Positions 4,360-21,479 of a DNA stretch of 42,745 nt are shown one piece after another. The notes beneath the pieces were generated by a model that searched no databases, was not told where the DNA came from, and was given only the letters and a program-made list of their open reading frames with translations. The DNA is from a virus. Position 1 is the first letter of the stretch. Every line of letters starts with the position of its first letter. Both the position numbers and the translations under genes were made by a program. The stretch is taken from positions 1 through 42,745 of IMG/VR virus record IMGVR_UViG_3300043399_000251; one strand, given 5' to 3'.

Positions 4360-4664
4360 TATCTCCAGCACCTTTCACATCCACGATATACACCATGAGC
4401 ACAGTATCCTAATTCAATTAAAGAGATAATTGTTTCGCATGGATACTCAATATATATAGGCTCTTCTATAAGTGGGTCAACGGCAATATTAGCCAGATAA
4501 GTACAATGCTCACAGGCTGTATCGTCATATGGTCCGTTTACTTCTTTGTGAAGTTCCTTTATTTTACTAATCTTTTCAGACATACTGCCTAAATCAGCCA
4601 TGACACTATCTACAAACTCTACATTTAAAGAGTTATATTTACGACTATCACATTGGTTACACAT
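4359..4664 (-). CDS. Small Cys-rich protein sharing the YPCxTI module, 101 aa
   Basis: The start overlaps the previous stop as TAATG. It opens with MCNQCDSRKYNSL and carries CEHC in the middle, IEYPCETIISL, then CAHGVYRGCERC at the end, enough ligands for one or two zinc sites. The CxxC plus YPCxTI segment is shared with the C-terminus of the gene at 2929-3498, suggesting a duplicated module. No known domain assigned. Confidence 0.6.
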   Translation of the reverse strand: MCNQCDSRKYNSLNVEFVDSVMADLGSMSEKISKIKELHKEVNGPYDDTACEHCTYLANIAVDPLIEEPIYIEYPCETIISLIELGYCAHGVYRGCERCWR

Positions 4665-4828
4665 TATAGTTGTTCCTCAATCCAGCGTTTCTTTTCTCTA
4701 CGCTCTCGTTTGTGGGTACGCTTTTTAATAGCCTTTACCACCCCAGCACGACTTAGATAAGTTAAATACTTACGACCCCAACGGCTGTAAGCATCTTGTT
4801 CATCTCCGTCTTTAGCTATCCGCTTCAT
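4664..4828 (-). CDS. Small basic phage protein, 54 aa
   Basis: A short reading frame from ATG 4828 to TAA 4664. The protein (MKRIAKDGDEQDAYSRW then a run ending KRTHKRERREKKRW) is highly basic. It resembles small basic proteins common in actinobacteriophages, where SHK/THK..ERRE is conserved. It overlaps the upstream gene by 17 bp and the next start as TAATG. It may bind nucleic acid, judged only from charge. Confidence 0.65.
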   Translation of the reverse strand: MKRIAKDGDEQDAYSRWGRKYLTYLSRAGVVKAIKKRTHKRERREKKRWIEEQL

Positions 4829-20990: not shown

Positions 20991-21006
20991 CTCCTTATAT
21001 AAGGAG
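20991..21006 (-). promoter_or_regulatory. Palindrome sequestering the thioredoxin ribosome binding site
   Basis: CTCCTTATATAAGGAG is a perfect 16-bp palindrome. Its second half contains the AAGGAG that lies 4 nt before the thioredoxin ATG. Folded as CUCCUU-AUAU-AAGGAG it would block ribosome access. Its first three bases (CTC, 21006-21004) are also the last three of the 13-bp stem of the adjacent structured RNA, so the two helices compete. Confidence 0.6.
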
Positions 21007-21143
21007 GGTGACGGATGCAAAATATCCAACTGCACCAAATAGCGTAACGGAATCAGCCTATTACGCTGTCGCAGACCAAGACTCTGCGAATGTCGGGATA
21101 TCGGAATAAGTAACTACACCATCCTAAGATATCCGCCACCCTC
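21004..21143 (-). ncRNA. Structured leader RNA of thioredoxin, riboswitch-like
   Basis: On the minus strand a 13-bp helix (one G-U) joins 21143-21131 (GAGGGTGGCGGAT) to 21016-21004 (ATCCGTCACCCTC). Inside lie a 6-bp hairpin CGCAGA/TCTGCG (21070-21088) and a 7-bp hairpin AGCGTAA/TTACGCT (21041-21067). A 7-bp pairing GGATATC/GATATCC (21134-21128 with 21102-21096) overlaps the closing helix and would compete with it. The element begins one base after tRNA-Asn and ends in the helix that hides the thioredoxin ribosome binding site. I could not match it to a known RNA family. It may sense a ligand or tRNA processing. Confidence 0.6.
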
Positions 21144-21144
21144 G

Positions 21145-21216
21145 CTGGAATGAGAGGATTCGAACCTCTAACCCGCCGATTAACAATCGGCTGCTCTGCC
21201 ATTGAGCTACACTCCA
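21145..21216 (-). tRNA. tRNA-Asn (GUU)
   Basis: Cloverleaf on the minus strand: acceptor TGGAGTG pairs with CATTCCA (one G-U), discriminator G. The D arm begins TAGCTCAATGGCAGAGC, the anticodon arm is GCCGA-TTGTTAA-TCGGC with anticodon GTT, and the T arm is AGAGG-TTCGAAT-CCTCT. No CCA is encoded. It lies one base from the structured RNA downstream. Confidence 0.93.
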
Positions 21217-21255
21217 AAAATGGACAGGTGGATTGTCTATTACCACCAAGGAGAA

Positions 21256-21358
21256 GTCTAGATACCATTTAAGTACCGCCTTAATCCTACCAGACCTTTA
21301 CTCCGCTAAGAGTTGAGACGCTAATCTCAGACCTGTGCAATTCTCGCCCCATCTAGAC
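21256..21358 (-). ncRNA. Candidate structured RNA between tRNA-Thr and tRNA-Asn
   Basis: GTCTAGAT and ATCTAGAC close a 103-nt element. Inside are two adjacent 4-bp hairpins with the same TTAGCG loop (minus strand GAGA-TTAGCG-TCTC at 21328-21315 and ACTC-TTAGCG-GAGT at 21313-21300) and a 5-bp hairpin TTAAG-GCGGTA-CTTAA (21284-21269). AGGTCTG occurs twice, flanking the hairpin pair. More hairpins flank the element at 21227-21247 (GGTGG stem), 21361-21383 (GGGAC stem) and 21383-21404 (9-bp CAAGTTCTT stem). There is no reading frame. It is not a tRNA: no T arm is present. Confidence 0.45.
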
Positions 21359-21408
21359 AAGGGACTTCGTTCTGCCATGTCCCAAGTTCTTCGTCAAGAA
21401 CTTGTTTG

Positions 21409-21479
21409 AGCCTCTTGTTGGAATCGAACCAACACTTGTGCTTTACAAGAGCACTACACTACCATTATGTTAAAGAGGC
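21409..21479 (-). tRNA. tRNA-Thr (UGU)
   Basis: Acceptor GCCTCTT pairs with AAGAGGC and the discriminator is T. The D stem ACAT pairs with GTGT around AATGGTA. The anticodon arm is GTGCT-CTTGTAA-AGCAC with anticodon TGT, reading ACA. The T arm is GTTGG-TTCGATT-CCAAC. No CCA is encoded. It is the first gene after the promoter at 21495-21523. Confidence 0.92.

Follow-up and report, generated by a model that had tools for sequence, protein, structure and literature searches.

A divergent subtype of the manA RNA family located in phage tRNA arrays

A non-coding interval between two tRNA genes

The window, i.e. the whole stretch of DNA analyzed here (42,745 nucleotides, IMG/VR record IMGVR_UViG_3300043399_000251), encodes a terminase that shares ~61% identity with its counterparts in Streptomyces phages like Gilson (Stanwilliamsviridae), which makes an actinobacteriophage its very likely source. 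ARAGORN places tRNA-Thr (21408-21479) and tRNA-Asn (21144-21216), both on the minus strand, on either side of the interval 21217-21408, in agreement with a preliminary description of this interval made from the sequence alone. The same description had reported the absence of a reading frame, and no credible gene is indeed found in 21217-21408: the sole listed ORF overlapping it (21053-21268, minus strand) crosses tRNA-Asn, and a protein-coding reading was hence discarded. The minus strand of the interval folds with -59.8 kcal/mol compared to -49.7 +/- 4.5 kcal/mol for shuffled sequences (z -2.25; 4 of 200 shuffles equal it), and the fold of the plus strand is weaker (z -1.40 vs shuffles). Since the plus strand also yields no Rfam match, an RNA encoded on this strand was discarded. 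The fold energy on its own is modest evidence, and it is the comparative evidence that decides.

Table 1. Location of the manA RNA, its structural elements and the adjacent tRNA genes in the window
Feature	Position	Strand	Arms and loops	Evidence and remarks
tRNA-Thr(TGU)	21408..21479	-		ARAGORN; Rfam 21409-21479; upstream neighbour of manA RNA in transcript
Conserved unpaired AACA	21403..21406	-		alignment A3; precedes 5' hairpin
manA RNA (RF01745)	21217..21402	-		cmscan, model 1-192 of 192, 55.9 bits vs cut-off 55.2
5' hairpin, loop GACG	21384..21403	-	arms 21403-21396 / 21391-21384	compensatory changes in 8/8 aligned pairs
Closing stem P1, GGACA/UGUCC	21222..21382	-	arms 21382-21378 / 21226-21222	97.8% of cells paired, 4/5 pairs compensated
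P2 enclosing P2a	21337..21375	-	P2 21375-21373/21339-21337; P2a 21365-21362/21349-21346	alignment
Pseudoknot GUCUAGAU/AUCUAGAC	21256..21358	-	P2a loop 21358-21351 with 21263-21256	
P3 with twin hairpins P3a and P3b	21291..21335	-	P3 21335-21330/21296-21291; UUAGCG loops 21324-21319, 21309-21304	
P4	21249..21288	-	arms 21288-21285 / 21252-21249	100% paired, 3/4 pairs compensated
3' hairpin GGUGG(UAAUAGACAAU)CCACC	21227..21247	-		most conserved block
tRNA-Asn(GUU)	21144..21216	-		ARAGORN and Rfam; begins immediately at manA RNA 3' end

The interval belongs to the manA family

A scan of the whole window against Rfam 15 returned four tRNAs and one non-tRNA match, the manA RNA, which is covered over its full model length (E 9.7e-12, Table 1). 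The score of the window is marginal with respect to the curated gathering cut-off of 55.2 bits, but the match itself is not in doubt. The cut-off is also reached by the manA RNA found at the corresponding place of a syntenic relative (L003, 82.4 bits) and by that of Rhodococcus phage Francesca (72.9 bits). Altogether, a manA match is present in about 70 viral contigs of this divergent subtype, 37 of which score above the Rfam cut-off, and many other members score below it with E-values of 1e-9 to 1e-15.

For the reverse comparison, a subfamily covariance model termed R1 was built from the relatives alone, marine sequences being excluded from the build. R1 assigns 181 bits to the window over 21217-21411, with the window itself among the seed sequences, and recognizes a marine manA RNA outside its seed (L306, 54.2 bits, E 3e-16). 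The tRNA-array subtype and the marine manA RNAs thus find each other reciprocally by means of the Rfam model and R1. The earlier suggestion that the interval might hold a new small RNA was not borne out, and the Rfam match over the entire manA model rules out a new family. The interval is occupied by a divergent, tRNA-array subtype of the manA family of about 190 nt on the minus strand.

Covariation defines a pseudoknotted structure

The structure was analyzed on an alignment (A3) of 37 distinct members that was made from sequence alone. Standard pairs occupy 91.1% of the cells of a 49-pair structure; the share drops to 71.5% upon shuffling and to 38-47% when the registers are slid. In 39 of the 49 pairs, both partners have undergone compensatory changes. 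The covariation score amounts to 0.539 vs 0.193 for shuffled alignments, a value that none of 500 shuffles reaches. These counts refer to sequences and not to events, and shuffling ignores kinship; the slid registers keep the kinship, yet fall far below the actual alignment. The preliminary description had proposed a structured non-coding RNA linked to tRNAs and had named the absence of a conserved structure in relatives as the finding that would speak against it. The conserved and compensated pairs support this proposal.

The individual helices assigned from the single sequence fared differently. An 8-bp helix had been taken as the closing stem. Its pairing is confirmed, since the aligned part (the first five pairs) is paired in 99.4% of the cells and compensatory changes occur in all five pairs, with variants such as GCCAGCAA/UUGCUGGC (L161) and GUCAA/UUGAC (L566) in relatives. 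Its closing role was however ruled out by covariation: the helix is a pseudoknot that joins the P2a loop to the 3' domain, and the RNA is closed by P1. The twin TTAGCG loops are present on the minus strand as described, and a twin UAGCG is found in 44 of the 50 distinct relatives. Among the proposed flanking hairpins, those at 21383 and 21227 correspond to the conserved 5' and 3' hairpins, while the bases of the one at 21361 pair in P1 and P2a in the relatives. The proposed TTAAG hairpin lies outside the strongest covarying pairs, and conservation is supported neither for it nor for the hairpin at 21361. As the five pairs of the 3' hairpin are invariant in the 37 sequences, this hairpin is without covariation evidence, and its conservation is inflated because its motif doubled as search key. 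The conserved AACA probably marks the 5' end of the RNA.

Relatives reside in tRNA arrays and may carry signals of their own

The relatives were gathered by the 3' sequence motif TGGNGGTAANNNNCAATCCNCC in one pattern scan of viral contigs in which tRNAs were not a criterion; the set comes from a single collection and comprises only members in which the 3' motif is intact. The pattern TTAGCGNCTN{3,8}CTTAGCGG by itself gave chance matches for the most part and was rejected. A tRNA on the same strand lies within 500 nt of the RNA in 42 of 50 distinct subtype loci, the other eight being without a detectable tRNA in that range, and an opposite-strand tRNA was found at none of the 50. Within 12 nt, a tRNA is located upstream in 26, downstream in 20 and on both sides in 17 of these loci, compared to means of 1.1, 1.2 and 0.3 (maxima 5, 6 and 2 in 400 trials) expected for random placement; the observed counts are lower bounds, as ARAGORN overlooks some readable flanking tRNA-like sequences. 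The distance from the manA RNA to the next tRNA is 0-1 nt in the window, L003, Corynebacterium phage Zion and others, and the downstream tRNA differs among phages (Asn, Asp, Gly, Lys, Trp or Ser).

Several members without an upstream tRNA display a -10-like box just ahead of the conserved AACA when read by eye. An intrinsic terminator follows within 70 nt in 12 of 47 members vs 6 of 235 controls and is common where no tRNA abuts downstream; the terminator scan and the -10 reading are both simple ones. The position of many actinobacteriophage relatives between tRNA genes suggests a free-standing RNA rather than a switch ahead of a protein gene.

The many loci in which tRNAs abut the RNA at both ends would likewise agree with a processing scaffold, an option named in the preliminary description, or with a spacer: the RNA would then only serve to separate neighbouring tRNA precursors or to offer them to RNase P, and would be disposed of once they have been cleaved. 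Such a role could also be read from the close relative L005, in which a hairpin of ~40 nt (4642-4682) alone separates tRNA-Thr and tRNA-Asn in the place of manA. A spacer has however no need of a covarying pseudoknot and conserved loops, and the RNA occurs also away from detectable tRNAs. The promoter-like box or terminator that relatives have of their own and the strong conservation of the loops and the 3' hairpin make a scaffold less likely, and we consider it quite improbable.

The cultured phages with a manA RNA, the locus of which is unannotated in each case, infect Rhodococcus, Corynebacterium and Streptomyces. The RNA is flanked by tRNA-Met and tRNA-Lys in Rhodococcus phage Francesca, by tRNA-Trp and tRNA-Ser in Corynebacterium phage Zion and by two tRNAs in Streptomyces phage Sham; Zion and its relatives account for 13 records. 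In the Zion record (NC_042087.1, 43038-43534, L738), the four tRNAs are annotated on the plus strand, while ARAGORN and Rfam put them, together with the manA RNA, on the minus strand. A blastn search with the Francesca sequence for further cultured phages returned Francesca alone, and manA was not found when plasmids were searched with the Zion sequence. When GTDB genomes were scanned with the 3' motif, no filter-passing stretch among the matches listed resembles manA, and a mention of the manA RNA was not found in the Rhodococcus phage WC1 transcriptome paper. A plasmid-borne counterpart has been described in the transcriptome of the Bifidobacterium breve megaplasmid pMP7017, where a tmRNA and a 178-bp manA motif lie in the tRNA array region (PMC10832533). 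It shares the location in a tRNA array with the window but belongs to a bacterial plasmid, and it is likened here by its published description.

Among 50 whole contig records, nearly all of them with a shared thioredoxin or endolysin, the Rfam manA RNA is present in two. L004 and L005, two close relatives, have kept the neighbouring tRNAs and lack manA, so that the RNA is dispensable and, to judge from these sequences, is gained and lost like a tRNA cassette. In relatives, tmRNA genes were observed within or close to the tRNA arrays (L003 3259-3519, L007 981-1236, L035 1793-2043); none was found in the window by ARAGORN or Rfam.

A gain and loss of this kind fits an accessory function, and the company of tRNA arrays, with a tmRNA in that of L003, is consistent with keeping translation running. 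Both would suit a trans-acting RNA that protects the phage tRNAs as a decoy by occupying a host anti-phage nuclease or tRNA-modifying enzyme. A tRNA-like fold was not found, and we give this idea very little credence.

Marine manA RNAs and the cis-regulatory label

The manA RNA was first proposed as a cis-regulatory RNA and riboswitch candidate located in putative 5' UTRs of metabolic genes of cyanophages (PMC2864571). It has been treated in this way mostly on the basis of marine metagenomes and cyanophages (PMC2864571; PMC9964418), and its Rfam type label is cis-regulatory. The manA RNA of the window does not take the position of a protein-gene 5' UTR, as tRNA-Asn directly follows. Judged by gene order, the cis-regulatory label does not fit the tRNA-array subtype because the RNA is followed by a tRNA or a terminator and not by a fixed gene.

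Both groups have in common the full-length covariance match, the closing stem, a CUGAA segment, the 3' domain and the 3' hairpin GGUA..AAUCC, and they differ in the middle domain. The twin UAGCG of the subtype occurs in none of 80 marine manA RNAs; conversely, a GGUGGUG hairpin is found in 79 of these 80, and GGUGGUGC in none of the 50 subtype members. The P2a-loop pseudoknot is likewise a feature of the subtype, whereas the marine alignment has a short loop at this place and no such covariation, and the location in tRNA arrays also distinguishes the window subtype from the marine RNAs.

If the RNA of the window were a cis-regulatory riboswitch, it would sense a ligand and control the downstream tRNA-Asn, a second RNA described below and the thioredoxin gene. 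The original marine proposal speaks for this, and so does the ORF start located 7-238 nt downstream in all 80 marine members, at no more than about 43 nt in half of them. What follows the RNA in the window's subtype, however, is usually a tRNA gene, the identity of which changes among phages, and some members end in a terminator of their own. Even the marine group is not free of such signals. The sequence TAAATA, which we take to be the core of a T4-type late promoter, lies at the 3' edge in 11 of the 80, so that the following gene may be transcribed from a start of its own; a simple terminator follows in 10 of the 80. In 13 of the 80, the RNA is followed by a conserved terminator-like element of 38-40 nt, AGACCUAAGAUGCAAC..GGGCAGAUGGUCU, mostly with a U-run, that is not seen elsewhere in those loci (L283, L287, L293, L296, L314, L317-L319, L323, L342, L345, L351 and L352) and was not matched by Rfam in either of the two loci scanned. 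We therefore regard a riboswitch as an unlikely explanation for the window. A tRNA is present within 30 nt downstream in 6 of the 80 marine loci, and for the marine manA RNAs we lean towards the same free-standing reading.

A possible free-standing role during infection

In our opinion, the RNA of the window is probably a manA RNA of tRNA-array subtype that is excised from the transcript of the phage tRNA array, folds with a pseudoknot and acts as a stable free-standing RNA in infection. It would be transcribed as one element of the array. Its exact abutment to tRNAs and the established course of tRNA maturation point to excision by tRNA-processing enzymes: cleavage by RNase P at the 5' end of tRNA-Asn would set the 3' end of the manA RNA, and maturation of the tRNA-Thr 3' end would place its 5' end close to the conserved AACA. 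The excised RNA is predicted to fold into a compact pseudoknotted domain and may persist during infection as a stable molecule. It might bind a protein or the translation machinery, most likely via the 3' hairpin and the UUAGCG loops. That it acts in trans on a protein or on ribosomes is speculation, prompted by the conservation of the 3' hairpin and the loops and by analogy to GOLLD.

GOLLD and ROOL are structured phage RNAs that often lie near tRNA islands (PMC12286853), and ribosome binding of GOLLD has been reported from pull-down assays (PMC12286853). The comparison to these RNAs drawn in the preliminary description is apt as an analogy between tRNA-linked phage RNAs but does not extend to kinship: both exceed 600 nt and have unrelated structures, compared to a gap of 192 nt in the window, and neither gave an Rfam match in the window. 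A similar arrangement is known from the stable RNAs C and D of T4 (species 1 and 2; 119-139 nt), which are encoded in the phage tRNA cluster on the same strand. Neither R1 nor Rfam detected manA in the T4 tRNA region, nor did R1 in the whole T4 genome; kinship was hence discarded, and RNAs C and D would be analogues of manA at most.

Extended to the whole family, all manA RNAs would form a class of free-standing phage RNAs of ~190 nt rather than riboswitches, a small and unrelated counterpart of GOLLD and ROOL that lies between tRNA genes in actinobacteriophages or between genes in cyanophages and combines a shared core with interchangeable middle domains. To this generalization we give a slight preference. 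The manA RNA has been listed among the riboswitch candidates since 2010, and we found no report of a ligand in the literature searched; if it is free-standing, looking for a ligand has meant asking the wrong question. It would then add a small member to the puzzling RNAs of tRNA arrays (GOLLD, ROOL and the T4 RNAs C and D), the common task of which may be to sustain translation in infected cells. The cultured hosts of Zion, Francesca and Sham make expression and function of manA directly testable.

A second RNA next to tRNA-Asn

A second structured RNA (fold z -4.1) was noticed on the minus strand of the window at 21006-21143, where it separates tRNA-Asn from the thioredoxin gene. It gave no Rfam match in the window or at five further loci. 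Its motif UAGGAUGGUGUAGUUAC is present in 63 viral contig stretches, with a tRNA within 250 nt at 58 of 64 places, and the RNA shifts its position within the tRNA array (L004, L005). A single overall alignment yields no consensus fold, and separate models are thus needed for each sub-group. By eye, the outer stems vary in sequence while retaining complementarity, and this second RNA likely represents a new tRNA-linked RNA family.
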